Made by a program: the position numbers and the translations under genes. Shown piece after piece: positions 17,370 to 53,802 of a DNA stretch of 64,000 bases; positions within the stretch are counted from its first letter, which is position 1; the number at the start of each line of letters is the position of its first letter. Origin of the DNA: Spirochaetales bacterium Spiro_02. Its GTDB lineage: Bacteria; Spirochaetota; Spirochaetia; Sphaerochaetales; Sphaerochaetaceae. Where the stretch lies: positions 1 through 64,000 of the forward strand of contig LVBD01000004.1 of assembly GCA_001604275.1 (NCBI GenBank), read 5' to 3'. The notes under the pieces are model-generated. The model was given only the letters and a program-made list of their open reading frames with translations, searched no databases and was not told the origin of the DNA.

Positions 17370-17408
17370 AATTTGATACGAAATGATGAATACGCAAGGA
17401 GTGGTTGG

Positions 17409-21839: not shown

Positions 21840-21876
21840 GTCGTACCTCCTGTGGTATATATGGAAAGAGTATTGA

Positions 21877-21927
21877 TGTAATCGTTTACATTCGAACTTA
21901 GTATACACCGAAATGACAGATTTGCAA
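21877..21927 (-). promoter_or_regulatory. fucI promoter with LacI-type operator
   Basis: On the minus strand: TTGCAA (21922-21927), 16 bases, TATACT (21900-21905), then TGTAAACGATTACA (21890-21877). The last is a 14-base palindrome with one mismatch, covering roughly +3 to +16. A perfect version of it occurs at 43350-43363. Confidence 0.65.
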
Positions 21928-23579: not shown

Positions 23580-23685
23580 GATAAAATCGTGCTAGAAATT
23601 AGAAATTTTGTCAAGGCGGAAAACGGAAAACCGCCGCACAATACTCTATATCGGCGGACAGATGCTCCACCGGGGGAGGAATGCG

Positions 23686-33814: not shown

Positions 33815-33848
33815 CGCAGGGCTTTCGTAGAATCCAGGAGGAACAGAC

Positions 33849-35201: not shown

Positions 35202-35261
35202 CCGGCGGCCTGACCGACGAAGATGATTCGATAGATACGATACGTGAAGGAGAGATAATCT

Positions 35262-37718: not shown

Positions 37719-37750
37719 CGTCTTCCCCGGGAAGGCGGCAAGGAGCGCAC

Positions 37751-39082
37751 ATGGTGGTGGAGAAACTCGAACAGCAGGTCAATGATCCCGATCGCGCCGT
37801 CCGTCTGGCGGCGGCGGCCGAGCTGGGGCGCCTGATCCGTGAAGGGGACCTGACGCGGACCGCGTTGGAGGAAGTGAACAATCATGTCCATACGACATGG
37901 TCGTTCAGCCCCTATGAACCGGCCGCGGCCGCCTGGCAAGCATGGAAAGCCGGGCTCGGTATCGTTGGGAGCATCGACCACGACAGCATCGGGGCCGCAA
38001 GGGAGCTGCGCGACGCTTGTGCGATGATCGGAATCGCCAGCACCGTAGGCTTCGAGCTACGGGTCAGTTTCCTCGACACCCCATTGGCCGACAGGAAGAT
38101 CAACAATCCCGACTCCGCGGGAATCGTCTACATGTGCGTCCATGGCGTGCCTCTCGCGCAGATCGACCGGGTGGCGCGGTTCCTCGCTCCGGTAAACATC
38201 GAACGTAATAAGCGAAATCTTGCCCAGGTCGAACGACTGCAGACGCTTGTCGGTAGGTATGGATATGATCTGGACTTCGAGCGCGATGTCGTTCCCCTTT
38301 CCCGGGCCGACGAAGGAGGAAGCATTACCGAACGACATATTCTCTATGCGATGGCGCTTCAGACGATCAGCATGAAAGGCAAGGGGGAGCCGTTGGTCGA
38401 TTTTCTGCGCAAGGAACTGCGCATCCCTCTTTCAACTGGCGTGGAAGGACTGTTGCTCGACGAGGGGAACCCCCACTATGCCTATGATCTGCTCGGTGTG
38501 TTCAAAAGTAACTTCCTGTCAAGGTTCTTCATCCAGCCCGGACGGGAGGAATGCCTGGACGCCAGGACCGTCGTTTCCTTCGGGAAGTCGATCGGGGCGA
38601 TTCCCGCCTATGCATACCTTGGAGATGTCGGACAGAGCGTCACCGGGGACAAGCGGGAGGAACACTTCGAGGATTCCTATCTCGATCAGTTGATGGACGT
38701 TCTTGTCGATCTCGGATATCCGGCAATCACTTATATGCCGCCGCGCAATACCGTAGCGCAGATGGAACGGCTCCAGCATCTTGCCCGCGAACGGGATCTG
38801 ATGGAGATCAGCGGTGTGGACATCAATTCCTCGCGTCAGAGCTTCAACTGTCCGGAACTGCTTTTGCCGTGTTGCCGGCATCTGGTCGATGCCGCATGGG
38901 CGCTGGTCGCCCATGAGAAGCTGTCCGATCGCGATCCGAAATTGGGTTTGTTCTGCGAGGACAATCCGCTGGCGGATCTTTCCTTGACAGAGCGTCTCGC
39001 CCGATATTCTGCGATGGGAAGAAAGATGGATCCGCGACATCCGGAGCGAATCATGGAACTATGGGAGGGAAGAAAAGCATGA
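37751..39082 (+). CDS. PHP-domain metal-dependent hydrolase, function unknown
   Basis: 443 residues. The PHP metal-binding motifs are NNHVHTTWSFSPY (HxH, about 53-65), GSIDHDSIGAA (the DHD motif, about 88-98) and VGFELRVSF (conserved Glu). The C-terminal half has no motif I recognise beyond EISGVDINSSRQSF and a cysteine pair LLPCCRHL. PHP proteins are phosphoesterases such as histidinol phosphatase or lactonase-like hydrolases, so a sugar-phosphate or cyclic ester may be the substrate. ATG 37751 is used (AGGAG five bases upstream); an earlier ATG at 37715 overlaps the E1 stop. The SDR gene begins within its stop (ATGA). Confidence 0.75.
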   Translation: MVVEKLEQQVNDPDRAVRLAAAAELGRLIREGDLTRTALEEVNNHVHTTWSFSPYEPAAAAWQAWKAGLGIVGSIDHDSIGAARELRDACAMIGIASTVGFELRVSFLDTPLADRKINNPDSAGIVYMCVHGVPLAQIDRVARFLAPVNIERNKRNLAQVERLQTLVGRYGYDLDFERDVVPLSRADEGGSITERHILYAMALQTISMKGKGEPLVDFLRKELRIPLSTGVEGLLLDEGNPHYAYDLLGVFKSNFLSRFFIQPGREECLDARTVVSFGKSIGAIPAYAYLGDVGQSVTGDKREEHFEDSYLDQLMDVLVDLGYPAITYMPPRNTVAQMERLQHLARERDLMEISGVDINSSRQSFNCPELLLPCCRHLVDAAWALVAHEKLSDRDPKLGLFCEDNPLADLSLTERLARYSAMGRKMDPRHPERIMELWEGRKA

Positions 39083-40248
39083 TGACGTCTTGTTGCGTTG
39101 ATCCGAGAACGGAAATTCCTGTTCTCCTGAGAGGCCTTACGTTCGACGGCGAAAAGGGCCTGTTCGTCCATACATTGGATACCGATTCCCCGACGAGGAC
39201 TGCATCCCTTGAACTGGAAGCTCCCTCCGGAGATCTTGCAACGACAGTGGAAGCATGGAAAACCGGAATGCATGCATATTATGAGGCAAAGAAAGCGTTT
39301 CCGGCTATTGTTTCTGTGGCTGGAACGTCGCTTGTGATGGGGCTTGGTTCATCCTACGACGAAGCTGTCTCCGCCAAAGGCGTGTCGGCGGATCCACTGT
39401 CGGAAGGATCGTCGGCCCGTGGGGACGTGGTTCGCGGCAAGATCGCGCTGGTCACCGGCGGAGCCCAGGGGTTCGGAGAAGGAATCGTGCGCGGCCTATG
39501 TTCCCTCGGCGCGTTCGTCTATATCGCAGACATGAATACGGCGGGTGCCGAAAAGCTCGCAGTTTCGCTCAACGAAGCGGCCGGCCGGACGGTTGCCGCC
39601 GGACTGTTCGTCAATGTGACCGACGAAGATTCCGTCAAGGCGATGATGGACGAAGTCGCCCTTCGTACAGGGGGACTGGATCTTTTCGTCAGCAATGCCG
39701 GCGTGCTTCGCGCGGGGAGCGTCAAGACGATGGAGCTAAAGGACTTCCAGTTCGTGACCAGCGTCGATTATACCGGATTCTTCCTCTGCTGCAAGCACGC
39801 TTCGGTGCAGCTGGCGTTGCAGAACCTGCCGTCGAAAGCCTATTTCACCGACTTGGTGGCGATCAGCAGCAAGTCGGGGCTTGAAGGATCGAACAAGAAC
39901 GGTGCATACGCCGGGGCTAAGTTCGGCGCAATCGGGCTGACGCAGAGCTATGCGCTGGAACTGGTGTCCGACAACATCAAGGTCAACGCCGTATGCCCCG
40001 GAAACTTTCTCGATGGACCTCTCTGGTCCGATCCCGAGAAAGGTCTGTTCGTCCAATATCTGGCGGCGGGCAAGGTGCCCGGGGCAAGAAGCGTCGCCGA
40101 TGTAAGGCGATTCTACGAAGCGAAAGTACCGATGAACCGCGGATGCCGTACCGAAGACGTGCTTCGGGCCATCTGCTATATCGTCGAACAGAAATACGAG
40201 ACCGGGCAGGCGGTTCCTGTCACCGGGGGACAAGTGATGTTGAACTAG
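39079..40248 (+). CDS. short-chain dehydrogenase with a 115-residue N-terminal extension (detached SDR half of RhaE/RhaEW-type proteins)
   Basis: 389 residues. The SDR domain (about 117-389) has the cofactor motif IALVTGGAQGFGEGI, NAG in VSNAGVLRAG, catalytic YxxxK in GAYAGAKFGAIG (about 277-281) and the ending TGQAVPVTGGQVMLN. GKIALVTGGAQGFGEGI and YIADMN are typical of the C-terminal half of bifunctional rhamnulose-phosphate aldolase/dehydrogenases. The extension contains FPAIVSVAGTSLVMGLGSSYDEA, which resembles the PKVVCVQGRGVFAFG segment of the separate aldolase at 24.9 kb, so it looks like a retained linker. By analogy it could oxidise L-lactaldehyde, or act like sorbitol-6-phosphate dehydrogenase. 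It starts by ATGA overlap with the PHP gene. Confidence 0.85.
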   Translation: MMTSCCVDPRTEIPVLLRGLTFDGEKGLFVHTLDTDSPTRTASLELEAPSGDLATTVEAWKTGMHAYYEAKKAFPAIVSVAGTSLVMGLGSSYDEAVSAKGVSADPLSEGSSARGDVVRGKIALVTGGAQGFGEGIVRGLCSLGAFVYIADMNTAGAEKLAVSLNEAAGRTVAAGLFVNVTDEDSVKAMMDEVALRTGGLDLFVSNAGVLRAGSVKTMELKDFQFVTSVDYTGFFLCCKHASVQLALQNLPSKAYFTDLVAISSKSGLEGSNKNGAYAGAKFGAIGLTQSYALELVSDNIKVNAVCPGNFLDGPLWSDPEKGLFVQYLAAGKVPGARSVADVRRFYEAKVPMNRGCRTEDVLRAICYIVEQKYETGQAVPVTGGQVMLN

Positions 40249-40304
40249 GTAAAAATGCCTGGTGCGACCCGCAATCATCCGATTATATATCGAAGGATCA
40301 TGAC

Positions 40305-41570
40305 ATGAAGACAAGAGCAGTGAGGTTATATGGGGTCAACGACCTGCGTATCGAAGAGTTTGAGCTTCCATCCATCAAGGACGATGAAATCCTCGCCAAG
40401 GTGGTGACCAACAGCGTATGCATGAGCGACCATAAGGCAGCGGAACAAGGCGCGGCCCACAAGCGTGTTCCAGACGACGTCGCGGACAACCCGATCATTC
40501 TCGGCCATGAGTTCTGCGGAGAGATCGTCGAAGTCGGTGCGAAATGGGCCGATCGCTTTTCCGCCGGCAATCTCTTTTCCATCCAGCCTGCTTTGAACTA
40601 CAAGGGCTCCCTAGCGGCGCCCGGGTATTCGTACCGGTATATCGGCGGGGACTCCACGTATATCGTCATTCCACGCGAGGTGATGGAGATGGACTGTCTT
40701 CTGCCGTATGACGGCGAGGCGTTCTTTCTCGGTTCGCTTGCAGAACCTGTCTCCTGCATCGTAGGGACCTATCACGCAATGTATCACACCAAGGCTGGGT
40801 CGTATGTCCACGACATGGGAATCGTGGAGGGAGGCGCTCTGGCCATCCTTGCCGGGGTGGGACCGATGGGACTCGGCGCGATCGACTACGGCATCCATTG
40901 CGACCGGCGACCCGGCCTTCTGGTCGTCACCGATATCGACGACGCCCGGCTCGCTCGAGCGGCTCAGCTCTATCCCGTGGAGGAGGCCGCCCGCAACGGG
41001 GTGAAGCTCGTCTATGTCAATACGAAGGACATGGCCGATCCCGTTGCTGAGCTGATGCGGCTGTCCGGCGGGAAAGGGTACGACGATGTCCTGGTGATGG
41101 CACCAGTCAGACAGTTGGTGGAGCAGGGGGATGCGATCCTCGCCAAGGACGGGTGTCTGAACTTCTTCGCCGGGCCGAACAGGACCGATTTCATCGCGGC
41201 GATGAATTTCTATAACGTCCACTACGCATCGCACCACATCGTGGGGACCAGCGGAGGCAATACCGCGGACATGGTCGAGTCCTTGCGGATGATGGAGACC
41301 GGATTGCTGAATCCATCCGCCATGGTGACCCATATCGGCGGCTTGTCGGCGGTTCCGCAGACAGTGATCGATCTTCCGGCTATTCCCGGCGGCAAGAAGC
41401 TGATGTATACCCATCTGGATCTGCCGCTGACCGCCATCGCCGATTTCGAAAAACTCGGCGAACAGGATCCTTTGTTCGCCGAATTGGCCCGCTTGGTGGC
41501 AAAGCACAACGGGCTGTGGTCCGCCGAGGCCGAGCGATACCTGCTTTCCCATGTCCCCAGTCGGGACTGA
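40305..41570 (+). CDS. zinc-type alcohol dehydrogenase, L-sorbose-1-phosphate-reductase-like
   Basis: 421 residues of the MDR superfamily. Catalytic zinc ligands are seen in NSVCMSDHKAA (Cys about 38) and ILGHEFCGEI (GHE). The structural-zinc cysteine lobe of many alcohol dehydrogenases is absent. NAD(P) binding lies around LAILAGVGPMGLGAIDYGI (about 180-198). Family resemblance is to SorE, which interconverts ketose and polyol phosphates. It lies between the SDR and rhamnulokinase genes in the same direction, so it probably acts on an intermediate of this pathway. AAGGA nine bases before ATG 40305 sets the start. Confidence 0.8.
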   Translation: MKTRAVRLYGVNDLRIEEFELPSIKDDEILAKVVTNSVCMSDHKAAEQGAAHKRVPDDVADNPIILGHEFCGEIVEVGAKWADRFSAGNLFSIQPALNYKGSLAAPGYSYRYIGGDSTYIVIPREVMEMDCLLPYDGEAFFLGSLAEPVSCIVGTYHAMYHTKAGSYVHDMGIVEGGALAILAGVGPMGLGAIDYGIHCDRRPGLLVVTDIDDARLARAAQLYPVEEAARNGVKLVYVNTKDMADPVAELMRLSGGKGYDDVLVMAPVRQLVEQGDAILAKDGCLNFFAGPNRTDFIAAMNFYNVHYASHHIVGTSGGNTADMVESLRMMETGLLNPSAMVTHIGGLSAVPQTVIDLPAIPGGKKLMYTHLDLPLTAIADFEKLGEQDPLFAELARLVAKHNGLWSAEAERYLLSHVPSRD

Positions 41571-41637
41571 CGCGAAGACGCCGGGCCGACAACGGTAGGA
41601 TCGAGCCTTGGCTTTTGGAACACAGGAGGAACTGCTG

Positions 41638-43083
41638 ATGGAAAGGAATGGAAGAAAGAAATACATCGCCGTCGATCTGGGGGCCTCCAATGGGCGCGTC
41701 ATCGTCGGGAATTTGGAAGAATTCGAGGTCGTCCATCGATTCGTCACCCGTAACGAAAGGATTCTGGGAGAGCTATACTGGGATATCATCGGAATCTATT
41801 CCGAGATTCTTCAAGGATTGAAGCGGGCGTTCTCGCTCTATGGAGACGACATCGTGTCCATAGGGATCGATACCTGGGGAGTCGACTACGGGCTGGTCGA
41901 CGGCCACGGTTCGCTTGTTTCTCCATCCTATCATTACCGGGATGGACGAACCGACGGTCTCATTGAGGAGCTTGCCGCACGGTTCGGCGGCAAGGCTGTG
42001 ATCTATGGACATACCGGCATCGCGTTCCAACCGTTCAACACACTCTATCAGCTGGCGGCGATGCAGCGGGATCGTCCAGAGGCTCTCGCCGCGACGAAGC
42101 GCTATCTATCGGTTCCCGACCTGCTTGCCTACTGGCTTACCGGAGTCATGAAGAACGAGCGATCCCACGCTTCCACCACGCAGCTCTATGATCCTGTGAC
42201 GAAGGACTGGTCGTGGAAAGTCATCGATACGATGGGATTCGACAGGACTCTGTTTGGCGAAATCGTCGACAGCGGCACTGTTCTGGGCGGTCTGACCGAA
42301 GCGCTTCGCCATGATCTTGGGGCTTCCGCGGCGGTGCAGGTAATCGCCACCGCCGCTCATGATACCGCCAGCGCAGTCGCCGCCGTGCCATCGTCGGCAG
42401 GGGAGACGCCGCTCTATATTTCGAGCGGAACCTGGTCGTTGCTCGGCGTGGAGCTGGATTCTCCGCTTCTATGTCAGGAGGCGATCGACTGCGGATTCAC
42501 CAACGAGGTGTCTGCCAGCGGATCCATCCGGTTCCTCAAGAACATCATGGGGATGTGGATCCAGCAGGAGTGCGTCAGATATTGGGAGTCTTGTGGCGAG
42601 AAGCTCAGCTGGAAGGAGTTGGATGAGCAGACGATGATTGCGGCGGACACGTACGACGGCTTGATCGATCCCGACGACGGGCGGTTCCTCAAGCCGAACA
42701 GTCATGAGTCGCTGATGACTGATCGTATCGTCGCTTGGTGCGTCGAAAACGGCGTCGCGCCTCCTTCGACCAAGGGCCAGTTCATGGTCGCGATCTATCG
42801 AGGCCTTGCCAACGCCTATGCCCAGGCGATAGCGCAGGTAAGCGATCTGACTGGCCGTTCGTTCAATACGTTGAATATCATCGGCGGCGGTAGCAAGAAC
42901 GAGATTCTCGATCAATGGGCGGCGGATGCCACCGGTCTTTCCGTAGTCGCCGGTCCTGTCGAAGCGACCGCGCTGGGCAACATCATGGTCCAGATGCTCG
43001 CCATGGGCGATATCGTTTCGATCCAGGAGGGACGGGATCTGCTTCGGACCGTCCAACAGGTGAAGATGTTCGCCCCGGCCTGA
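41638..43083 (+). CDS. rhaB: rhamnulokinase
   Basis: 481 residues, normal for RhaB (489), FGGY kinase family. Phosphate-binding IAVDLGASNGRVIVG (about 8-22), GIDTWGVDYGLVDG (about 78-91, catalytic Asp region), FNTLYQLAA, YLSVPDLLAYWLTG, YISSGTWSLLGVE and NIIGGGSKNEILDQWAADATG are characteristic. It phosphorylates L-rhamnulose at C1; FGGY rhamnulokinases can also accept related 6-deoxyketoses, which matters because no fuculokinase is present. AGGAGG nine bases before ATG 41638 sets the start. It is the last gene of the series that begins with the DeoR gene. Confidence 0.95.
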   Translation: MERNGRKKYIAVDLGASNGRVIVGNLEEFEVVHRFVTRNERILGELYWDIIGIYSEILQGLKRAFSLYGDDIVSIGIDTWGVDYGLVDGHGSLVSPSYHYRDGRTDGLIEELAARFGGKAVIYGHTGIAFQPFNTLYQLAAMQRDRPEALAATKRYLSVPDLLAYWLTGVMKNERSHASTTQLYDPVTKDWSWKVIDTMGFDRTLFGEIVDSGTVLGGLTEALRHDLGASAAVQVIATAAHDTASAVAAVPSSAGETPLYISSGTWSLLGVELDSPLLCQEAIDCGFTNEVSASGSIRFLKNIMGMWIQQECVRYWESCGEKLSWKELDEQTMIAADTYDGLIDPDDGRFLKPNSHESLMTDRIVAWCVENGVAPPSTKGQFMVAIYRGLANAYAQAIAQVSDLTGRSFNTLNIIGGGSKNEILDQWAADATGLSVVAGPVEATALGNIMVQMLAMGDIVSIQEGRDLLRTVQQVKMFAPA

Positions 43084-43363: not shown

Positions 43364-43503
43364 TTTTTTGTTGACAAACTGGAAAACCGATGGGAAGATA
43401 CAATTGTCGGCGATGGTTCATACGTTTCGTCGGCGTAAAAGAACGAGGGAAAAGCCTGTCGGGGTGGCAAGACCCTGAACGTGCAAACAAAAGGAGAACA
43501 CGT

Positions 43504-44586
43504 ATGAAAAAGAGGATTTTGGTCATTTTGCTGATTCTCGCGGTAGTCGGCGGTACAGTATTCGCTCAGGGCGGCAAGGAATCTTCCGCTTCCGGCGCCA
43601 TCAAGATGGGTGCCTTGATCCGGAACCTGAACGAACAGTTCGTGAAAGACTATTCGGAGAACTTGAAGAAGCTCGCGGCTGCCAACGGCGTGGAGTTGAA
43701 TCTCCAGGATGCCCAGGGCAATGTGGCCACTCAGCTCGACCAGCTCAACACGTTGCTGACTCAGGGCTACAAGTATTTCGTCATTATTCCGCAGGATACC
43801 AGCGCGACCGAACAGATGGCCCAGCAGATCGCGGCTGTCGGCGGTGGAGCCGCTTTTTCCAACATCCAGCCTTCCGTAGAAGCGCTTAAGGTTGGCAAGG
43901 ACTTCTATCTGGCATCCTCCCCTGAGGCGGTCGCCGGACAATATCAGGCGCAGATCATCGATGAATATTTTACCAAATATCCCGACAAGGCGCCCGGAAA
44001 GGTTTTGAACATGCTGTATCTCCAGGGACAGCTCGGACATCCCGCGCAGGTCAACCGGGAAGCGGGCATGATCGACGAACTTGAGGCTCGCGGCTACACG
44101 GTAAACTTCATCGCCAAGGATACCGCCAACTGGACCCCTGACCAAGCGCAGGAAAAGATGGACACATGGCTCGCCGCGTTCCGTGGCAAGTTCAACATCG
44201 TCGTCGCCCAGAACGACGGCATGGCCCTCGGAGCGGTCGAGTCCTTGATCACGAACGGATTCACCAAGAACAACGCAGACGACGGCACGATCCTGACCGT
44301 TCCCGTACTCGGTATCGACGCCACTGCCGATGCTTTGAACTCGATGGACCAGAACAAGCTGTACGCCACAGTCCTGCAGGACTCCGTCGGACAGAGCTCG
44401 ACGGCGTTTGAGCTGATGCTCACCATGGCCAAGAACGGTACAGCCAACGGCAGTACCGCCTGGGGTCTGAAGCCTGCCACAAAGGTGATCGCCGAAGCCC
44501 CCGCCAATGATCCGTCCGTGATCGGTCAGTGCTACCTGGTTCCGTTCAAGCCCGTCACCAAGGCGAACTACAAGGAATTGATGTAG
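43504..44586 (+). CDS. ABC importer, galactose/ribose-type substrate-binding protein
   Basis: 360 residues, with signal peptide MKKRILVILLILAVVGGTVFAQG and no lipobox cysteine. The mature part is of periplasmic-binding-protein class B: IKMGALIRNLNEQFVKDYSENLKKLAAANGVEL, DQLNTLLTQGYKYFVIIPQDTSATEQMAQQI, VVAQNDGMALGAVESLITNG and VLGIDATADALNSMDQNKLYATVLQD, as in MglB. The likely ligand is a monosaccharide. L-fucose is a candidate because fucI shares the operator, but this is inference. AAAAGGAG before ATG 43504 sets the start. Confidence 0.9.
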   Translation: MKKRILVILLILAVVGGTVFAQGGKESSASGAIKMGALIRNLNEQFVKDYSENLKKLAAANGVELNLQDAQGNVATQLDQLNTLLTQGYKYFVIIPQDTSATEQMAQQIAAVGGGAAFSNIQPSVEALKVGKDFYLASSPEAVAGQYQAQIIDEYFTKYPDKAPGKVLNMLYLQGQLGHPAQVNREAGMIDELEARGYTVNFIAKDTANWTPDQAQEKMDTWLAAFRGKFNIVVAQNDGMALGAVESLITNGFTKNNADDGTILTVPVLGIDATADALNSMDQNKLYATVLQDSVGQSSTAFELMLTMAKNGTANGSTAWGLKPATKVIAEAPANDPSVIGQCYLVPFKPVTKANYKELM

Positions 44587-44611
44587 GACTTCCGTTCGTC
44601 ACATCGCCCGA

Positions 44612-44636
44612 CCGGAGGTTTGATCGGAATCTCCGG
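44612..44636 (+). other. intercistronic hairpin after the second class-B binding-protein gene
   Basis: CCGGAG (44612-44617) pairs with CTCCGG (44631-44636) around a 13-base loop, 26 bases after the stop codon and before the ATPase gene. There is no T-run. Confidence 0.4.
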
Positions 44637-44759
44637 CGGAACTTCCAAGTTGCCGGCTCGCCTGGATTCATGCAGCACGGGCCGGCGTATTTCATCATAT
44701 TGACTGGAAAAATAGGGCAAGATTCTCACCCTACCGATCTTCTTGAATAAGGACAATGT

Positions 44760-46259
44760 ATGGACAGCTATGCCCTTGAAATGCTGGATATTACCAAACG
44801 CTTCCCCGGTGTGCTTGCATTGGACAATGTCACGTTCCGTGTCAAGCCGGGAACCGTGCATGCGCTGATGGGTGAAAACGGTGCAGGGAAATCCACGCTG
44901 ATGAAATGTCTGTTCGGCATATATAAAGAAGATGCCGGAACGATACTGCTCCAAGGAAAAGAAACGCATTTCCATGGTTCCGCAGATGCGCTGGAAGCCG
45001 GCGTCTCGATGATTCACCAGGAGCTTTCCAATGTTCCTGAACGATCGGTCGCCGATAACATCTGGCTGGGGCGCGAACCGAAGAACAAGTTCGGATTGCT
45101 CGATCATAAGAAGATGCTCCAGGATACCGCGAACCTGCTTCGCCGGGTAGAGATGGATGTCGATCCCCGTCAGAGAATGGGGGGGCTTTCCATTTCGAAG
45201 CAGCAGGCGTGCGAGATCGCCAAGGCTGTCAGCTACGATGCGAAGGTAGTCGTCATGGACGAACCGACCAGTTCCTTGACGGACAACGAGGTCGAGCATC
45301 TGTTCAAGATCATCAGGAACCTCCGTTCCCAGAATGTCGCGGTAATCTATATCAGCCACAAGATGGAGGAGATCTTCCAGATCGCCGACATGGTGTCCGT
45401 CATGCGGGACGGGCAGATGGTCGGCACCTACGGAGTGGACGAACTGACCAATGATAAGTTGATTTCGCTGATGGTCGGTCGCGACAGCACCCAGCGTTTC
45501 CCTGAAGTCGAAAGCCGGATCGGCGATGTCTGTCTGAAAGTAGAGCATCTGTCAGCGATGAATCCCAGATCCTTCCAGGATGTCAGTTTCGAACTCCACA
45601 AAGGTGAAATCCTCGGTGTGGGAGGGTTGGTAGGCGCTCAGCGGACCGAACTGGTCGAGGCGATTTTCGGAATTCGCGGCATCGCCGTCGGCCGGATCGA
45701 AATCAATGGAAAGAATTTCTCGAAACTGACTCCCAAATTGGCCATCGACAACGGGCTTGGAATGATTACCGAAGACCGTCGGGGAAGCGGGATATTCCCG
45801 TTGCTGAACATCACGAACAATACGGCTATGGCTTCGTTGGGGGAATATCGGAATAAATTGAAGATGCTCCGGCACAAGGAGATCGAGGTGGAATGCCGCC
45901 GATACAACGAGGCGCTCCGGACCAAGACACCTACGATGGAGACGTTGATCCAGAACCTGTCGGGCGGTAATCAGCAGAAAGTGATTATCAGTAGATGGTT
46001 GATGACGGTTCCGGATATCCTGATCATGGACGAGCCGACTCGTGGCATCGATGTCGGCGCGAAACTGGAAATCTATACGATCATGGCGAACCTGGTCAAG
46101 GAAGGCAAGGCGATTCTCATGGTCAGTAGCGAAATGCCGGAATTGATCGGGATGAGTCATCGGGTGATGGTGCTGTGCGAAGGCAAGATGACCGGGATTC
46201 TGGATTCAGGCGATATCACGCAGGAGAATATCATGCGGCTCGCCACGCAATTCTCATAA
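44760..46259 (+). CDS. ABC importer, ATPase with two ABC domains (MglA/RbsA type)
   Basis: 499 residues. First cassette: GENGAGKST (Walker A), LSISKQQACEIAKAV, VVMDEPTSSLTDNEVEHLF. Second cassette: GLVGAQRTELVEAIFG (degenerate Walker A), NLSGGNQQKVIISRW (signature) and ILIMDEPTRGIDVGAKLEIY. It energises the single permease that follows. AAGGA precedes the ATG by 6 bases. Confidence 0.93.
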   Translation: MDSYALEMLDITKRFPGVLALDNVTFRVKPGTVHALMGENGAGKSTLMKCLFGIYKEDAGTILLQGKETHFHGSADALEAGVSMIHQELSNVPERSVADNIWLGREPKNKFGLLDHKKMLQDTANLLRRVEMDVDPRQRMGGLSISKQQACEIAKAVSYDAKVVVMDEPTSSLTDNEVEHLFKIIRNLRSQNVAVIYISHKMEEIFQIADMVSVMRDGQMVGTYGVDELTNDKLISLMVGRDSTQRFPEVESRIGDVCLKVEHLSAMNPRSFQDVSFELHKGEILGVGGLVGAQRTELVEAIFGIRGIAVGRIEINGKNFSKLTPKLAIDNGLGMITEDRRGSGIFPLLNITNNTAMASLGEYRNKLKMLRHKEIEVECRRYNEALRTKTPTMETLIQNLSGGNQQKVIISRWLMTVPDILIMDEPTRGIDVGAKLEIYTIMANLVKEGKAILMVSSEMPELIGMSHRVMVLCEGKMTGILDSGDITQENIMRLATQFS

Positions 46260-46280
46260 TCCAAAAGGAGAGATAGTGAT

Positions 46281-47297
46281 ATGGCTCGGAACAATACCGA
46301 AAAGAATGATGTGCTTTCCACATGGGCGTCCATGAGGAAGCTTGCTTCAAAATATACCACCTGGGTCACATTCGTTCTGTTGATCCTCCTGCTCTCGATC
46401 TTGACCAAGGGGGCCGCACTGCGCTGGCAATCGATCAGGAATCTGCTGATACAGGAATCGGTCCGTGCGTTCGCCGCATTGGGCGTAGGAATGATCATCA
46501 TCACCAAAGGCATCGACTTGTCGATCGGATATGTCGTTTGTCTTTGTTCCTCGATCGCCGCTTCGTTCGCACAGAATCCGAACTATTCTTCGGCGATCTA
46601 TTCCGGACATAGTTTTCCCTTGTTCGTGCCGATTCTCGCCGGTATCGTCGCAGGCGGGCTGTTCGGCTTGTTCAACGGTTGGCTGGTCGCATACGGCAAG
46701 CTACCCCCATTCATCGCTACGCTCGGTTCGATGTCGATCGCAAAAGGGCTTCAGCTGATTTATACGAAAGCTGCGGTAGTCGGTTCGTTGAATCAGAACT
46801 ACAAGAATATTTCGCAGGGAAGCGTCGGTCCGCTCCCGAACTTGATCATTTATGTGATCATCGCGGCGATCATTGTCTGGGTGCTACTCAACCACACTCG
46901 GCAGGGTACCAACTTCTATGCGATCGGCGGCAATCCGCAGGCGGCGCGTGTGTCCGGTATCAATGTCGAGCGCGACTTGATGCTCGTTTATACGTATGCA
47001 GGGTTGCTGTATGGCGTTGCCGGCGTGCTGCTTTCCAGCCGCCTCGGTCTGGCAAATTCGTTGACGGCAAATGGCATGGAGCTGGATGCGATCGCCGCGG
47101 TCACGGTGGGTGGGGTCTCCCAGTCGGGAGGTGTCGGTACCGTCGGCGGAATGATGATCGGTGTCTTTACTATGGGGTTGATCAACTACGGTATGACGTT
47201 CCTCGCGATCGACAGCTATTACCAGCAGTTGGTCAAAGGGTTCATCATCATCGTGGCTGTGTTCTTCGATATGAAGAAATACGCTCGTCGCGCCTAG
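46281..47297 (+). CDS. ABC importer, permease (MglC/RbsC type)
   Basis: 338 residues with 8-10 hydrophobic segments. FAALGVGMIIITKGIDLSIGYVVCLCSSIAASFAQ carries the G-I-D-L-S-I-G motif, then GKLPPFIATLGSMSIAKGL, GTNFYAIGGNPQAARVSGINVERD and IAAVTVGGVSQSGGVGTVGGMMIGV. One permease gene, so a homodimer is expected. The gene closes the binding protein-ATPase-permease operon; a possible terminator follows. Confidence 0.93.
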   Translation: MARNNTEKNDVLSTWASMRKLASKYTTWVTFVLLILLLSILTKGAALRWQSIRNLLIQESVRAFAALGVGMIIITKGIDLSIGYVVCLCSSIAASFAQNPNYSSAIYSGHSFPLFVPILAGIVAGGLFGLFNGWLVAYGKLPPFIATLGSMSIAKGLQLIYTKAAVVGSLNQNYKNISQGSVGPLPNLIIYVIIAAIIVWVLLNHTRQGTNFYAIGGNPQAARVSGINVERDLMLVYTYAGLLYGVAGVLLSSRLGLANSLTANGMELDAIAAVTVGGVSQSGGVGTVGGMMIGVFTMGLINYGMTFLAIDSYYQQLVKGFIIIVAVFFDMKKYARRA

Positions 47298-47384: not shown

Positions 47385-47455
47385 CATGTTGCTTCCTTGC
47401 CCTCAGTCGGTGTAAGGTGTAACAAGAGTTTGTGAAGCATCAGGATGAGAGTGAG

Positions 47456-48598
47456 ATGGGAAAAGAGATTCGGATGGATGATGAATCGACGTCGGTCGGT
47501 AGACGGCATGTATCGCACGGGTCCGCTACGATCAAGGATGTCGCGGAACTCGCCAAAGTGTCGATCGCCACGGTCAGCCGGGTTCTGAACCATCTCGGCG
47601 TCGTGAATCCGGATACCGAACGGAAGGTGCTTTCCGCCATGAAGATGCTGAACTATCAGCGCAACGAAGTGGCGCGATCATTGAAGACCCGTACGACGAA
47701 ACTGATAGGGATCATCGCTCCGGAGCTTTCGAATACGTTTTTTTCGGAGATTGTCGAACAGCTTGAGCGTCAGCTCGGTCCGTTGGGCTATGCGATGTTG
47801 TTCTGTTCTTCGCAGAATTCGGTCGAGGAGGAGAAGCGGCGGCTTCGTCTGTTGCTTGAGCGAAACGTCGATGCGCTGGTCGTCATTCCAACCGGAGATA
47901 CTGGGGATCACTTCATCGGCAAGGCGTTCGAGACCACTCCTTTGGTGATGATCGACCGGCAGATTCCCGGTCTGGATGTTGATCTGGTTCTGACGGATAA
48001 CAAGAAAGGCGCCTACGAGGTCACGACATCTCTGATTCGGGAAGGGCACAAACGCATCGGTTTCCTTGGGGGAGATCTGCATGTCCATACGGCTACCGAG
48101 CGTCTTCACGGGTTTCTGAGCGCAATGCATGCCTATGGTTTGCCGGTGGAGAAGGAGTTCGTCATGATGGACGGCATGTCCCAGCAGACCGGCCACGGGG
48201 TCATGCGCAAAGTGCTTGAGCATGAGGATCGTCCGGATACGTTCTTCATCGTCAACGATATGGTCCATGTGGGCGCAAGTAGCTATTTGTATGAGTTTGC
48301 GGACGCCGAGACAAAGCGACGGATCGTGTTCGGTGCGTTCGACTATCTGCACTATGCACCGCTTTTGCGGTTCTGCCACTATGCGGTCGCCCAGCCGTTG
48401 GAGAAAATGGGCGAGGCTGCCGCCCAGTTGCTCATCAAGCGTCTTGGGGGCGATCGTTCCGACTTTCCGAAGAAAATCGTCATTCCTCCGACGATCAAGG
48501 TAATGACCGCCAACGGTGGTCTCCTGACCGATGATCGCCAGCAGGCCGCGGTCGAGGTCCTCGAGGACATTCCTCGTCTCGACTGTGTTTTCAGTTGA
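47456..48598 (+). CDS. LacI-family transcriptional regulator
   Basis: 380 residues from ATG 47456 (a GTG at 47432 would add 8). The HTH and hinge are TIKDVAELAKVSIATVSRVLNHLGVVNPDTERKVLSAMKMLNYQRNEVARSLKTRTTKLIG (about 24-83). The sugar-binding core follows with VDALVVIPTGDTGD, VMIDRQIPGLDVDLVLTDNKKGAYEVT, RIGFLGGDLHVHT and VAQPLEKMGEAAAQLL. The SIATVSR recognition helix is standard for sites with a central CG such as TGTAAACGTTTACA. It lies downstream of the 43.5-47.3 kb importer and is the best candidate to bind the operators there and at fucI. Confidence 0.92.
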   Translation: MGKEIRMDDESTSVGRRHVSHGSATIKDVAELAKVSIATVSRVLNHLGVVNPDTERKVLSAMKMLNYQRNEVARSLKTRTTKLIGIIAPELSNTFFSEIVEQLERQLGPLGYAMLFCSSQNSVEEEKRRLRLLLERNVDALVVIPTGDTGDHFIGKAFETTPLVMIDRQIPGLDVDLVLTDNKKGAYEVTTSLIREGHKRIGFLGGDLHVHTATERLHGFLSAMHAYGLPVEKEFVMMDGMSQQTGHGVMRKVLEHEDRPDTFFIVNDMVHVGASSYLYEFADAETKRRIVFGAFDYLHYAPLLRFCHYAVAQPLEKMGEAAAQLLIKRLGGDRSDFPKKIVIPPTIKVMTANGGLLTDDRQQAAVEVLEDIPRLDCVFS

Positions 48599-48610: not shown

Positions 48611-48740
48611 GGGTCATGGTAAGGGTCATGGTAGGGTCATTGCGCGGGGGTGCGCGTGATGTGCCGTGATGTGCCGTGATGTGCCGTGATGTGCCGTGAT
48701 GTGCCGTGATGTGCGCAAGAGGTGCGCAAGAGGTGCGCGT
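48611..48740 (+). repeat. cluster of short tandem repeats between convergent genes
   Basis: Three families adjoin: GGGTCATGGTA(A) in two full and one partial copy (48611-48640); GTGATGTGCC, 10 bases, five perfect copies from 48656 to 48705 plus a partial; and GTGCGCAAGAG, 11 bases, twice (48711-48732) followed by a partial. They lie just after the LacI stop, before the convergent dehydrogenase. The remaining bases up to 48884 show nothing recognised. Confidence 0.9.
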
Positions 48741-48884: not shown

Positions 48885-49970
48885 TCACGGTCGGTGATCC
48901 TTCTTGGACTTGAGTTCTTCATCGAAACAGACAGCCACTTTGCCACAAGCGCCGCTGGCCATGAGGGCATAGGCTTCGTCGGCTTTCTCCAGCGGAAAGC
49001 GGTGGGTGACCAGATCCTCGGGGTGGATGTTCCAACGTACCAGACGTTCGACCAGATCCTCCATCCGCCAGATACTCGTCACCCAGCTACCGTAAATCGT
49101 CTTCTGGTCATGGAGCATGTCGGGGCTCGGATTGAAATGGACCGTTCCTCCTTCGCCGACAAATGCGATTTTTCCCCACTGTCGTGTCGCGCGGATTGCT
49201 GTAGCGCGGCCGGAGTCGCTGGCTGAACAATCGATCGCCTTTTCCACGCCATGTCCGCCGGTTACTTCTCTGACCTGGCGTACATTTTCTTCGGACGGAG
49301 TGAACACATGATCGACAAGCCCCAGTTCCTTTGCCAACTCGATGCGGGCGGGCTGCATTTCGATGCCGATGAGCTTGTTGGCCCCCATCGCCCTGCACAG
49401 CATCAGCGCCGCAAGCCCGACCGGTCCGAGTCCAGTGACAAGAACAGCATCGTCGCCGGAGACTCCGATTTTCTCGATCGCTTCGTACACCGTACCGAAC
49501 CCGCAGGCGACCTGCGCCCCATCGGTATAGGTCAATTCGTCTGGTAGTGCGACCAGATCCTTCTCGTCGCAGAGCATGTATTCGGCCATGCCTCCGTCCC
49601 GTTGCCATCCGTAGGCGGCCCGAAGCGGACTTGAGCAGGAAATCATGAACCCTTGCCGGCAGTCGTGGCAGACGCCGCATCCGCTGATGTGATAGACGAT
49701 CACCCGGTCGTCTTTCTTGAATCGCCGTAGACCGGGGCCCTCTTCGATGATGATCCCGCATGGTTCATGACCGGCGATCACGCCTTGATATCCCTCCGGT
49801 CCCTTGCCGAGGTGTTCGCGGTAGATGCACCGGATATCGCTTCCGCAGATGGTCGTCGCTTTCGTTTTGACCAGCACCTGTCCATGTCCGGGGGTCGGAA
49901 TGGCATATTGCTTGAATGCGACGGTACTGTTTCCGGGAAGTGTCGCCCCCATCATCGTTCCTTTCATCAT
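48885..49970 (-). CDS. zinc-dependent medium-chain alcohol/polyol dehydrogenase
   Basis: 361 residues. Catalytic zinc: TTICGSDIRCIY (Cys) and IAGHEPCG (GHE). Structural zinc: CGVCHDCRQGFMISC (four cysteines). NAD(P) motif: VLVTGLGPVGLAALMLCRAMGA (about 175-196). This is the threonine/sorbitol/xylitol dehydrogenase branch. The ATG at 49970 is used (AGGAGGAG five bases upstream). The aldo-keto reductase gene ends 15 bases before, so the two are cotranscribed and could perform aldose to polyol to ketose conversion. Confidence 0.9.
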   Translation of the reverse strand: MMKGTMMGATLPGNSTVAFKQYAIPTPGHGQVLVKTKATTICGSDIRCIYREHLGKGPEGYQGVIAGHEPCGIIIEEGPGLRRFKKDDRVIVYHISGCGVCHDCRQGFMISCSSPLRAAYGWQRDGGMAEYMLCDEKDLVALPDELTYTDGAQVACGFGTVYEAIEKIGVSGDDAVLVTGLGPVGLAALMLCRAMGANKLIGIEMQPARIELAKELGLVDHVFTPSEENVRQVREVTGGHGVEKAIDCSASDSGRATAIRATRQWGKIAFVGEGGTVHFNPSPDMLHDQKTIYGSWVTSIWRMEDLVERLVRWNIHPEDLVTHRFPLEKADEAYALMASGACGKVAVCFDEELKSKKDHRP

Positions 49971-49985
49971 CAACTCCTCCTGTTT

Positions 49986-51017
49986 CTATTTTCGTACGTA
50001 TCGAGGCGGGCATGGAATCGTTCCATCCAGATCCCACAGATCCTCCCATCCTCCGGCTTCCTCCCAGAGAAACACCTGCCCCTTGATCAGTCGACAGTTT
50101 CTGTCGATTTTCCGCAACCGGAGATATTCGTCGTCGGTCAGAGGGTCTTCGCAGACGGCCGCCAGATTCGAGACGATGTTCCGTTCCTTCGTCGATAGCG
50201 GGATGGGGATATGTCCGTTGGCCGCCGCCCATTTGAGACAGACCGCCGCAGGATGGCACCCATGAGCCTGTGCGATTTCCATGACCACCGGGTCTTCCAT
50301 ATCGACGGTATCGGTCGGAACACGGTCACGTTCGGGTCGGTTGGGGGAGCCGAGAGGACAGTAGCCTATGACAACGATGTCCTGATCCTGCACATAACGG
50401 ACGAATTCCTGCTGTTGGAAGTGCGGATGGAGCTCCATTTCCTGGACTGCCGGCCGGATTCGGCAATCGCGGAGCAACAGGTCGAGTTTTGCTCGTGTTA
50501 TGTTGCTCGTGCCGATATGCCGGACGAGACCTGCATCGACCAGTTTCTCCAATTCCCGCCATGTTTCCATGAATTCTTCATGGATGTATGGGCGTGCGTT
50601 GGGACTGCGGGCATCGACATCGCATTTTGGCGGATGGTAATTGGGAAACGGCCAATGCACCAGATATAGATCGAGGTAGTCGAGCCCGAGGTCCTGCAAC
50701 GACTCTCGAAAAGCCGGGCCGACATCCACCTTCGCATGTTTGTCGTTCCACAGCTTGCCGGTGATCCAAAGGTCTTCACGGGCGATCGGGCCGAGTCCTT
50801 CGATCCTCCCTGCCATGGCGTCGCCCAGCACTGCGCCGATTTGACGTTCGTTCCCATACACTTGCGCGCAGTCGATATGCCGATATCCCGCCTTGAGGGC
50901 TAGGACGACCGCCTGAGCCATCTGGTCGTTGCTGATATGGTCGCTGCCGAACGTGCCGAATCCGATGGCGGGAATCTTGGCGCCGGTGGCAGGAACAGTC
51001 TTGAAAGGTACGTTCAT
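49986..51017 (-). CDS. aldo-keto reductase (xylose/aldose-reductase-like)
   Basis: 343 residues, a little longer than the usual 280-330. The catalytic tetrad is visible: Asp and Tyr in HIDCAQVYGNE, Lys in ITGKLWN, His in LVHWPFPNYHPP. IPAIGFGTFGSD at the N-terminus and IPIPLSTKERNIVSNLAA near the C-terminus (NADPH binding) are standard. ATG 51017 follows GGAGGAACGACG. It is first in a two-gene operon with the zinc dehydrogenase and divergent from the XylR-like regulator, so an aldose (pentose) is the likely substrate. Confidence 0.9.
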   Translation of the reverse strand: MNVPFKTVPATGAKIPAIGFGTFGSDHISNDQMAQAVVLALKAGYRHIDCAQVYGNERQIGAVLGDAMAGRIEGLGPIAREDLWITGKLWNDKHAKVDVGPAFRESLQDLGLDYLDLYLVHWPFPNYHPPKCDVDARSPNARPYIHEEFMETWRELEKLVDAGLVRHIGTSNITRAKLDLLLRDCRIRPAVQEMELHPHFQQQEFVRYVQDQDIVVIGYCPLGSPNRPERDRVPTDTVDMEDPVVMEIAQAHGCHPAAVCLKWAAANGHIPIPLSTKERNIVSNLAAVCEDPLTDDEYLRLRKIDRNCRLIKGQVFLWEEAGGWEDLWDLDGTIPCPPRYVRK

Positions 51018-51121
51018 CGTCGTTCCTCCATGGACTAACGGTAGCGTCCTGATGAAAAAACACAATGCTTGAAATGCGTGTATATACTGTTGTTTTGCGC
51101 AGAACATGATATGATTCCGAC

Positions 51122-52321
51122 ATGAAGGAACATCAGGATGGAAAGCGGATGCTGCATATCGGATTGCAGCTCCGTCTGCGGGATAGCTATGATATGGCGG
51201 TGGCTCGAGGCGTGATCCGTTTCGCACGGACGCGAACCGACTGGGAACTGAGGGGGACCGGACCTTGGTTTCTCCCGTTGGAAGGTAGCGGGACGCGGCA
51301 GTGCGACGCTTTGATCGCTCGCATCGAGGGAGACGAAGACGCCCGACAGCTCCGTATGCTTGAGGTCCCGATCGTCGATATCGCCGGCGCCTGTACGGAC
51401 CGGATCTTCGATACGGTTCGTAACGATGACTATGCGACAGGTGTCAGGGCTGGAGAGTATTTACGGAATCTAGGTTGCGATTCCTATGCGTGGTGTGGTG
51501 TGGAGAACGTGCATTGGGCGAGGGAGCGGCTGGTCGGATTCTGCGGGGCTATCGGTCGGTCTTCTGGGCGCATCCCTCGGTTCGAACGTTCGTTGAAGTG
51601 GTGGGAACGACTGTATGACGCTTCTGCGGAGCTGAGACGCTGGTTGCTTCAGCTTCCGCGACCGACGATCCTGTTCTGCGGCAGTGATCTGGTGGCCATG
51701 AAAGTTAATCTGGAGGCGGGCCGGCTGGGTATCGTCGTGCCCGATGAGCTTTCCATCCTCGGTGTCGACGATGAGGAACTGCTGTGCGAACTCGCAACGC
51801 CGTCGCTGTCCAGCGTCAAGCTCAATTGCGAACGGATCGGATACGAAGCGGCTCTCTTGCTCGATCGGCTGCTCCGGGAATCAAATGGAGAACGGAGCTC
51901 TTCCGTGAGCGTCCGCCGGATCGCTCCTGGTGACGTTGTTGAACGGGAAAGTACCGCGGCGATCCTCGACGCTGATTCTGTGGTGGCGCAAACGGTCAGG
52001 ATGATTCGGCGCGATGCCTGTACCGGCTTGAATGTCTCCGATCTGGTCAAGCGACTGCCCGTTTCCCGTCGCTCGCTCGAACAGCGGTTCCGTGCCTCCC
52101 GAGGGCGCACCGTACTGGAGGAACTTCATCAGGAACGGCTGAGGGCGGCCTGCAGGCTGCTTCGTACGACCGACTTGACCGTTGAGCGAATAGCGATGGA
52201 ATGCGGCTTCTCCTCATTGCAGCGGTTCTACATACAGTTCCGCGAAACATATTCGATGACACCGGGGCGATGGCGACGTTCCGGACAGGATTATCTGCCG
52301 CAAGATTCGGAGGATGCTTGA
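51122..52321 (+). CDS. XylR-type regulator (LacI-like sugar-binding domain + AraC DNA-binding domain)
   Basis: 399 residues. The N-terminal 280 or so resemble the periplasmic-binding fold of LacI proteins, without their HTH: LHIGLQLRLRDSYDMAVARGVIRFAR, TVRNDDYATGVRAGEYLRNLG, VPDELSILGVDDEELLCELATPSLSSVKLNCERIGYEAALLLDRLL. The C-terminal AraC domain has VSDLVKRLPVSRRSLEQRFRASRGRTVLEELHQERLRAAC and IAMECGFSSLQRFYIQFRETYSMTPGRWR. This order is that of E. coli XylR. It is divergent from the aldo-keto reductase/dehydrogenase operon with 104 bases between starts, and likely activates it. Confidence 0.92.
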   Translation: MKEHQDGKRMLHIGLQLRLRDSYDMAVARGVIRFARTRTDWELRGTGPWFLPLEGSGTRQCDALIARIEGDEDARQLRMLEVPIVDIAGACTDRIFDTVRNDDYATGVRAGEYLRNLGCDSYAWCGVENVHWARERLVGFCGAIGRSSGRIPRFERSLKWWERLYDASAELRRWLLQLPRPTILFCGSDLVAMKVNLEAGRLGIVVPDELSILGVDDEELLCELATPSLSSVKLNCERIGYEAALLLDRLLRESNGERSSSVSVRRIAPGDVVERESTAAILDADSVVAQTVRMIRRDACTGLNVSDLVKRLPVSRRSLEQRFRASRGRTVLEELHQERLRAACRLLRTTDLTVERIAMECGFSSLQRFYIQFRETYSMTPGRWRRSGQDYLPQDSEDA

Positions 52322-52420
52322 GGAAAAATCCCGGCTGTGGCAGAATGTCAGGGTATGGGAAGACGGGGGAGAGATCATCATCCGTCATCAAATAGAGAAG
52401 CATAAAAGAGGGAGTAGCAT

Positions 52421-53098
52421 ATGGAACTCATGCTCGATACGGCCAATATCAAGGATATCCAGAAATGTTTGGAAATCTATCCCGTCAGCGGAGTGACAAC
52501 TAATCCGTCGATTCTCAAGGCGGAGGGAAACGTGGATTTCTTCCAGCAGCTGAAAAAGATCCGGGCATTGATCGGCGAAGAACGGAGTCTTCATGTCCAG
52601 GTTGTCAGCGAGAACTGGAAGGACATCATCCAAGAGGCTGAAAAGATCCGTTCCGTGCTCGGCGAAGCGACATTCATCAAGATTCCTGTGACCGAAGACG
52701 GATTGCGAGCCATCAAGTCACTTGTCGAGGAGGGCGTGAACATTACCGCGACCGCCATCTATACGTCGTTGCAGGGAATCATGGCGATGCTTTCCGGCGC
52801 CAGATATATCGCGGTCTACTATAACCGGATGCTCAATATCGACATAGATGCTGCGAAAGTCATCAAGGAGCTGTCCGGCTTGCTATGGGCGAATCCCGGC
52901 AATTGTCAGATATTGGCCGCCAGTTTCAAGAATATCTCCGAAATCACCACCGCCTATGCGAATGGTGCAAGTTGCTGCACCGTTCCTTGCGATCTGCTGA
53001 AGACCGGATTGCAGATGCCTTCGATTACAAAAGCCGTGGCCGATTTCCGGATGAACTGGTCGGCTATCCACGGGGACAAGACGATTCTCGATCTCTAG
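52421..53098 (+). CDS. fructose-6-phosphate-aldolase/transaldolase-like protein
   Basis: 225 residues, the length of the small FSA-type transaldolase subfamily. It begins MELMLDTANIKDIQKC, has SGVTTNPSILKAEG, the Schiff-base Lys in TFIKIPVTEDGL (about 86), ITATAIYTSLQGIMAMLSGARYIAVYYNRM and GASCCTVPCDLL. It would make or cleave a C-C bond between a dihydroxyacetone unit and an aldehyde phosphate. GAGGG lies before the ATG. It is 100 bases after the XylR-like gene and may belong to the same pentose/polyol route. Confidence 0.9.
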   Translation: MELMLDTANIKDIQKCLEIYPVSGVTTNPSILKAEGNVDFFQQLKKIRALIGEERSLHVQVVSENWKDIIQEAEKIRSVLGEATFIKIPVTEDGLRAIKSLVEEGVNITATAIYTSLQGIMAMLSGARYIAVYYNRMLNIDIDAAKVIKELSGLLWANPGNCQILAASFKNISEITTAYANGASCCTVPCDLLKTGLQMPSITKAVADFRMNWSAIHGDKTILDL

Positions 53099-53205: not shown

Positions 53206-53802
53206 TCAACGGAACAATCTATGCTTCGGTTTTTCCTGATATGCTTCCTGAGCGGCGGCTTGCGCATGCCGCTCTAGCTCCTGGGCGGAAATCGAGGCAG
53301 ATTCTCCGGCGGCACCATCCTCTTTTGTCGTTCCATCGAGAATTCGTTCGAACCGCGGGCGGTTGTAGCGTTGTATCATCGCGCAGGGAATGTTCATGAT
53401 CAACGAATAAAGAATCAGCCATTTCGCTATTTTGATAGGCGCTACGAGGATGATGGGGATGGCGAACAGAAGCGTCAGTTCATGGGTCAGTTCGGCTCGG
53501 ACCGATTCGAGGACAAATTGTTGCAGATATTCATCGTCGGTGCTCTTCAGATATTTCTTTCTGAACCGATACGGGGATGTGGCGCCGGCATCGGGAATGA
53601 GCTGCTTCCATGCCTTGATCCGGAACCACCGTTGATAGACTGCGCCATCCCGTTCCCAGTCCATGGGTTTCAGCCGGTTGCGCCAGCCGTTCAGTTGCTC
53701 ATAGGATAGCCTGTCCACGATGTACGATGCAAAAATCTGGCTCGCAATGGTTACTGCTATGACAGAGACATACGAAATGGGAAACGATATTCCTCCATCC
53801 AT
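53206..53802 (-). CDS. CrtO-like (glycosyl-diaponeurosporenoate acyltransferase family) membrane protein
   Basis: 198 residues. A hydrophobic N-terminus (about 8-28) is followed by ERDGAVYQRWFRIKAWKQLIPDAG, YRFRKKYLKSTDDEYLQQFVLESVRAELTHE, a hydrophobic pair of helices (about 112-150) and NIPCAMIQRYNRPR. This pattern matches the CrtO family, known from staphyloxanthin synthesis in Staphylococcus, where it acylates a glycosylated carotenoid. No carotenoid gene is present here, so the acceptor must be something else, perhaps a glycolipid. A polar Ala/Glu-rich tail of about 40 residues follows. It is divergent from the WYL gene. Confidence 0.75.
   Translation of the reverse strand: MDGGISFPISYVSVIAVTIASQIFASYIVDRLSYEQLNGWRNRLKPMDWERDGAVYQRWFRIKAWKQLIPDAGATSPYRFRKKYLKSTDDEYLQQFVLESVRAELTHELTLLFAIPIILVAPIKIAKWLILYSLIMNIPCAMIQRYNRPRFERILDGTTKEDGAAGESASISAQELERHAQAAAQEAYQEKPKHRLFR

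Follow-up and report, generated by a model that had tools for sequence, protein, structure and literature searches.

What sugar is served by an aldo-keto reductase (AKR) and a zinc-dependent dehydrogenase encoded together beside a XylR-type regulator is the question raised by this locus of Spirochaetales bacterium Spiro_02, which lies in the 64-kb stretch of DNA analysed here (64,000 nucleotides; hereafter the window). An earlier note on the same DNA proposed an oxidoreductive aldose–polyol–ketose route, with xylose used in the fungal style in place of an isomerase. The gene calls hold: the dehydrogenase, the AKR, the XylR-type regulator and an aldolase of the fructose-6-phosphate aldolase (FSA) type lie at the positions claimed, with Pfam families that each exceed their cut-off (ADH_N and ADH_zinc_N for the dehydrogenase, Aldo_ket_red for the AKR, Peripla_BP_3 and an AraC-type helix-turn-helix for the regulator, TAL_FSA for the aldolase), and the AKR and dehydrogenase form one operon, divergent from the regulator and near the FSA-type gene. 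The general route from aldose through alditol to ketose is also likely, given a catalytic tetrad, a two-zinc site, gene linkage and an FGGY/GatZ/GatY/FucU context; xylose as its substrate is not supported. Instead, we propose that the pair would be a catabolic module converting a galacto-configured aldose to a ketose by two redox steps, the likeliest aldoses being L-fucose and L-galactose, with D-galactose possible, and we give this reading about an even chance of being correct.

Conserved residues of the two enzymes bear on both catalysis and cofactor use. The best solved matches are threonine and sorbitol dehydrogenases for the dehydrogenase and plant AKR4 aldose reductases for the AKR. Zinc ligands of the dehydrogenase (the catalytic Cys, His-Glu and four structural Cys) are invariant in 40/40 readable aligned rows, and the AKR tetrad D50/Y55/K89/H122 is invariant in 63/63. 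The second Rossmann strand of the dehydrogenase ends in Asp or Glu in 41/41 rows, an acidic residue that we take to mark the NAD type. In the AKR, the position equivalent to K262 of human aldose reductase, which we take to be the Lys of NADPH-dependent aldose reductases and which is also Lys in the aligned plant aldose reductase, is occupied by Phe, Met, Gln, Leu or Thr in 62 rows and by a gap in one (Lys in 0/63), and the R268-equivalent position is Arg in just 2 of 63. Because the AKR is without the NADPH-type Lys and the dehydrogenase carries the acidic NAD-type residue, the former is predicted to use NADH and the latter NAD, which would make the pair redox-neutral. NCBIfam names were not adopted for the dehydrogenase, as its scores all fall far below those required (IolM, 153.9 versus 450 bits; Tdh, 149.2 versus 458 bits), and identity of the AKR as an L-fucose 1-dehydrogenase was not favoured, its nearest models and structures being DkgA/AKR4-type reductases.

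The choice of a galacto-configured substrate comes from the relatives. Dehydrogenase orthologues are rare in Spirochaetota (6/296 genomes, this one included) and occur in 3/395 Bacteroidota and 17/387 Verrucomicrobiota genomes, the last two counts including genomes used as centres; the stretches around 22 newly found orthologues were read, and named loci with both genes come from Spirochaetota, Verrucomicrobiota, Acidobacteriota, Actinomycetota, Bacteroidota and Bacillota. We compared 40 dehydrogenase loci, comprising 8 of Sphaerochaeta type and 32 others, the AKR being seen in 28 of the latter as well. The gene cluster is not a chance arrangement, because the dehydrogenase, AKR and XylR-type regulator occur together in 8/8 Sphaerochaeta-type loci and the FSA-type gene in 7/8; an Mgl binding protein is present in 4/8 and RhaB in 2/8. 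Sphaerochaeta halotolerans (L020) is among the species that carry the cluster. Among the 32 distant relatives, 17 carry fucose genes at most 9.5 kb away from the dehydrogenase, compared with 0 of 20 control regions (295 kb, drawn from 12 of the same genomes, several regions ending early at contig ends), and when the four loci that donated reference sequences are left out the count is 13/28 (Fisher p 2e-4). These genes are GH29 (7 loci), GH95 (3), FucI (3), FucP (6) and FucU (9), including weak matches for FucU in locus L026 (40%), GH95 in L030 (37%) and GH29 in L092 (25%); neighbour labels were checked by Pfam or NCBIfam on a sample. In L098, GH95, FucI, GH29, FucU, FucP, the dehydrogenase and the AKR all lie on the same strand, with FucP above its curated cut-off, while additional genes in L093 encode another AKR, a fuconolactonase-like protein, a Zn-oxidoreductase and a UxaE-type epimerase, a set that, in our understanding, resembles the oxidative L-galactose route.

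A second line of evidence is provided by the AKR where it occurs without this dehydrogenase. A scan of named genomes yielded 44 loci with the AKR; five loci on a distant branch (L056–L060) were not counted with those described next. The 21 AKR loci that do not have this dehydrogenase contain GatZ, GatY or PfkB (16/21), a different Zn-dehydrogenase (12/21), FucU (10/21) and an FGGY kinase (9 by first label, with an XylB-like kinase in 4 more), gene sets that would fit a sequence of aldose, alditol, ketose, ketose phosphate and aldolase. Loci with and without this dehydrogenase are interleaved in the AKR tree, with 11 label changes, at least three of them forced by well-supported branches; together with the other Zn-dehydrogenase, this suggests that the same AKR works with two dehydrogenases. 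The GatZ, GatY and PfkB partners would fit conversion of galactitol to D-tagatose and its phosphates, and so lend support to a galacto-configured aldose. Loci of Citrobacter and Atlantibacter (L046, L047, L048 and L055) combine the AKR with an ABC transporter, FucU, GatZ, GatY, a Zn-dehydrogenase and an FGGY kinase; they would give the route an enterobacterial form, possibly a more tractable one. Separately, an Acidimicrobiaceae locus encodes a PfkB kinase fused to a GatZ/KbaZ-like domain (L026:1259-3580), in a cluster that also holds both Zn-dehydrogenase kinds, RhaB and the AKR.

The following account of substrate, product and cofactors, of where the alditol is oxidized, of what the FSA-type aldolase does and of the regulator as an activator is inferred from such features. 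The AKR would reduce the open-chain galacto-configured aldose to the alditol with NADH, and the Zn dehydrogenase would oxidize the alditol to a ketose with NAD+, leaving the pair redox-neutral overall. An FGGY kinase, RhaB-like in this locus, would phosphorylate that ketose, and an aldolase would split the product. The XylR-type protein would sense a sugar and activate the AKR promoter via a candidate direct-repeat operator. More tentatively, and with a clearly smaller chance of being right, these loci may reflect a widespread bacterial NADH-balanced reductase/dehydrogenase route for both L-galactose and L-fucose, in which a mutarotase would open the ring, the AKR would form the alditol and the product would depend on which of two interchangeable dehydrogenases follows. 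The galactitol-type dehydrogenase would feed D-tagatose phosphate metabolism, the alternative being the dehydrogenase seen here; since galactitol is achiral, such a route could channel an L-sugar into the metabolism of D-sugars, something an isomerase cannot do. The alditol derived from L-fucose would be oxidized at C5 to 1-deoxy-D-tagatose, and an FSA-type aldolase might conceivably cleave the 6-phosphate of that sugar, with release of hydroxyacetone. The aldolase passes the FSA/TalC family cut-off (PRK12656, 'fructose-6-phosphate aldolase', 289.6 versus 214 bits) and keeps the motifs at Q59, K85 (presumably the Schiff-base lysine), T109 and the YNR segment; what sets it apart from that family is its context, a XylR-type regulator and a polyol-type pair. 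The rhamnulokinase-like kinase scores 427 bits against TIGR02627, under the cut-off of 528.

Several observations weigh against the galacto-sugar reading. No fucose gene was found within 9.5 kb in the Sphaerochaeta-type loci (0/8), so that the substrate is carried over from relatives sharing 51–81% identity in the dehydrogenase and 53–69% in the AKR, and none was found near the dehydrogenase in 15 of the 32 distant relatives themselves. Two of those 32 (L081 and L082) have GH31, GH2, GH36 or GH42 genes, the GH31 possibly an alpha-xylosidase; their feed may be xyloglucan or galactan, and xylose or D-galactose is a possible substrate there. The Mgl-like transporter gives no sugar-specific evidence. 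Moreover, this genome encodes both FucI and RhaA, and FucI occurs in 13 of 18 queried dehydrogenase-bearing genomes (several of them draft assemblies), even within the same gene run in L098, so that a plain FucI bypass would be redundant there. RhaA (PF06134) was likewise matched in 13/18, although in G009 and G011 the match is weak and overlaps one to RhaI; with these counts, and a RhaI-like isomerase in the genome of L038, simple replacement of FucI or RhaA is weakened as an explanation. FucI was not found in five dehydrogenase-bearing genomes (those of L026, L027, L030, L031 and L038). The pair in L038 comes after genes for RhaEW and RhaB, and this gene set would complete a path from L-fucose to lactate and dihydroxyacetone phosphate without FucI, the RhaI-like isomerase being present as well. 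Because FucI is found in 13/18 of these genomes, the pair would either serve a sugar that FucI handles poorly (e.g. L-galactose), pull a poor equilibrium, or yield a product other than L-fuculose.

Of the competing explanations, the one that survives best, though we consider it improbable, is that the aldose is a different one (L-rhamnose, D-arabinose, L-arabinose or a plant or algal sugar) and that the fucose linkage is a tendency of the family rather than a rule for spirochaetes. The window also encodes an aldolase and a rhamnose-type (RhaS-type) ABC transporter, and with rhaA and RhaB it could be called a rhamnose island; we read it as a deoxyhexose rather than a pentose island. RhaB is found near the pair in L017, L024, L026 and L038, the last also having an L-rhamnose mutarotase at the locus, but rhamnose would already be served by RhaA here and by the RhaI-like isomerase in the L038 genome. 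Somewhat less probable is a role downstream of fucose and rhamnose, with the AKR making 1,2-propanediol from L-lactaldehyde and the dehydrogenase acting on propanediol or hydroxyacetone. According to PMC3870299, the rhaA and fucI routes, both represented in the window, end in lactaldehyde, and the pair is linked to L-fucose genes and, in L038, to a RhaEW-type aldolase/dehydrogenase. However, the same AKR family occurs in GatZ/GatY/PfkB clusters, which should yield no lactaldehyde and are interleaved in the tree, and the presence of the FucU mutarotase next to the AKR suggests that the substrate is a cyclic sugar. Least likely of all is the fungal-style xylose route, with the AKR as xylose reductase, the dehydrogenase as xylitol dehydrogenase and XylR sensing D-xylose: it draws on the regulator's resemblance to E. 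coli XylR and on the GH31 gene near the pair in L081 and L082, but xylA, xylB, sugar ABC genes and a LacI-family gene lie on another contig, no xylA homologue was found near the dehydrogenase in the 32 distant relatives, and the neighbours are of fucose and tagatose type instead.

Specifically, xylA is on contig C45 (667.7 bits versus a cut-off of 533.25), adjoined by xylB, in a cluster that also has a GH3 enzyme; because both genes are present elsewhere in the genome, the organism can be expected to use the isomerase route, and the pair is not needed for xylose. Xylose was therefore rejected as leading substrate, and with it the idea that the pair stands in for xylose isomerase in this organism. 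The earlier note had taken control of xylA and xylB by the same regulator as a point against its reading; the two genes lie beside the LacI-family gene and look to be under a different one. The XylR-type protein adjoins the AKR/dehydrogenase operon rather than xylAB, although it shares with E. coli XylR the combination of a LacI-type sensor and an AraC-type helix-turn-helix, and that protein is its best solved match (4fe7, E 9e-40) over 374 residues, nearly the full length; no second full-length copy of it was found in the genome.

AraC-family regulators often bind two-turn direct repeats. A CGCA-N17-CGCA direct repeat has one match in the AKR/XylR gap of 10/10 spirochaete loci, a count that is partly by construction, as the pattern was derived from the same 10 aligned gap sequences; for L017, L018 and L083, however, the alignment did not reach the upstream half, which turned up later at the right spacing. 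Another 4 sites in the window match the regular expression, none at the AKR promoter and one inside the XylR gene, where about 1.2 in all would be expected from a single-base shuffle. A stricter form has a single perfect match in the window, at 51072-51100, with just chance-level two-mismatch matches elsewhere. In a scan of the window and a 20-kb xylAB stretch, the derived candidate repeat was absent from the latter.

The features of the locus are collected below.

Features at and around the reductase/dehydrogenase operon (positions in the window)
Feature	Position	Strand	Basis
Zinc-dependent medium-chain dehydrogenase, predicted NAD-dependent alditol dehydrogenase	48885..49970	-	Pfam ADH_N/ADH_zinc_N, zinc ligands, solved matches
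AKR, predicted NADH-dependent aldose reductase	49986..51018	-	Pfam Aldo_ket_red, tetrad, solved matches
Candidate XylR operator, CGCA-N17-CGCA direct repeat, 21-bp period	51074..51100	-	Alignment of spirochaete AKR/XylR gaps
XylR-type regulator, LacI-type sensor and AraC-type helix-turn-helix	51122..52321	+	Pfam, match to 4fe7
FSA-type (TalC/PRK12656) fructose-6-phosphate-aldolase-like enzyme	52421..53098	+	Pfam TAL_FSA, NCBIfam PRK12656
LacI-family regulator, conserved beside the pair in Sphaerochaeta-type loci	47432..48598	+	Pfam, locus comparison
Mgl-like sugar ABC transporter (binding protein, ATPase, permease)	43390..47297	+	Pfam/NCBIfam; beside the pair in several Sphaerochaeta-type loci
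Rhamnulokinase-like FGGY kinase, candidate ketose kinase	41608..43083	+	TIGR02627, below cut-off

The genome is that of a 2.6-Mb spirochaete whose nearest named relatives are Sphaerochaeta-type genomes. Within the operon, 15 bases separate the two genes and a ribosome-binding-like site precedes each. The AKR open reading frame extends to an upstream GTG at 51227; the likely starts are the ATG at 51018, preceded by an AGGAGG-like site, for the AKR and the ATG at 49970 for the dehydrogenase. The XylR-type gene diverges from the AKR across a gap of 103 bases, with the FSA-type gene downstream of it, and on the dehydrogenase side the LacI-type regulator and the Mgl-like transporter are convergent, followed by the kinase. 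Between the convergent LacI and dehydrogenase genes lies a tandem array of a 10-bp unit (48650-48714, 6.4 copies), bordered by 12- and 11-bp arrays. Adjoining the FSA gene, positions 53206-53802 encode a protein of the CrtO-type glycosyl-4,4'-diaponeurosporenoate acyltransferase family. A run of genes at 32459-41570 that reaches the RhaB-like kinase encodes the E2, E3 and fused E1 alpha/beta components of a 2-oxoacid dehydrogenase complex, a 455-residue protein without a Pfam match, a short-chain dehydrogenase/reductase and a second long Zn-dehydrogenase; the last three and RhaB adjoin the pair's cluster in L017 too (67–82% identity). Farther away, fucI (20013-21908, exceeding its family cut-off) and rhaA (23608-24936, exceeding the PRK01076 cut-off) are divergent and 1.7 kb apart with an AraC-type gene in between, and by coordinates they are near each other and divergent in 6/7 queried Sphaerochaeta-type genomes, a mixed fucose/rhamnose locus. 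Positions 17373-19919 encode an 848-residue fusion of pyridine nucleotide-disulphide oxidoreductase, rhodanese, TusA and DsrE-like domains.

Fungal xylose reductase and xylitol dehydrogenase belong to the same superfamilies (AKR and zinc-dependent medium-chain dehydrogenase/reductase) and act in the same order of aldose, alditol and ketose, but they typically form an NADPH/NAD pair, whereas here NADH/NAD is predicted, xylA and xylB are in the genome and the neighbours point to galacto-configured sugars. The fungal oxidoreductive D-galactose route likewise reduces the aldose to galactitol and then oxidizes it to a ketose; the likeness is one of reaction order, and the genes here form a bacterial operon with relatives that have FucU, FucP and fucosidases. 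The FucI-FucK-FucA pathway for L-fucose has FucP, FucU, fucosidases and FucI in common with the relatives' loci, and these loci add a reductase/dehydrogenase pair that, to our knowledge, textbook accounts of the pathway do not include. In the literature searched, in part through titles and the beginnings of abstracts and mostly without subscription papers, we found no bacterial route of this kind, with an AKR and a zinc dehydrogenase acting on fucose or galactose, and a search aimed at XylR gave no paper. By the terms used, no mention of aldo-keto reductases or spirochaetes was found in PMC3870299 (rhamnose pathways), nor of aldose or reductase in PMC2873477 (xylose regulons), and PMC9594981 concerns sulfoquinovose.

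If the proposal is true, a polyol detour thought to be fungal would be used by bacteria of at least six phyla for fucose- or galactose-type sugars derived from the glycans of plants, algae and hosts. Two enzymes named by no curated family model would gain a function, and the predicted redox-balanced pair could be useful for making fucitol, galactitol or tagatose. The locus would also provide a worked case of a XylR-type regulator that does not govern xylose.

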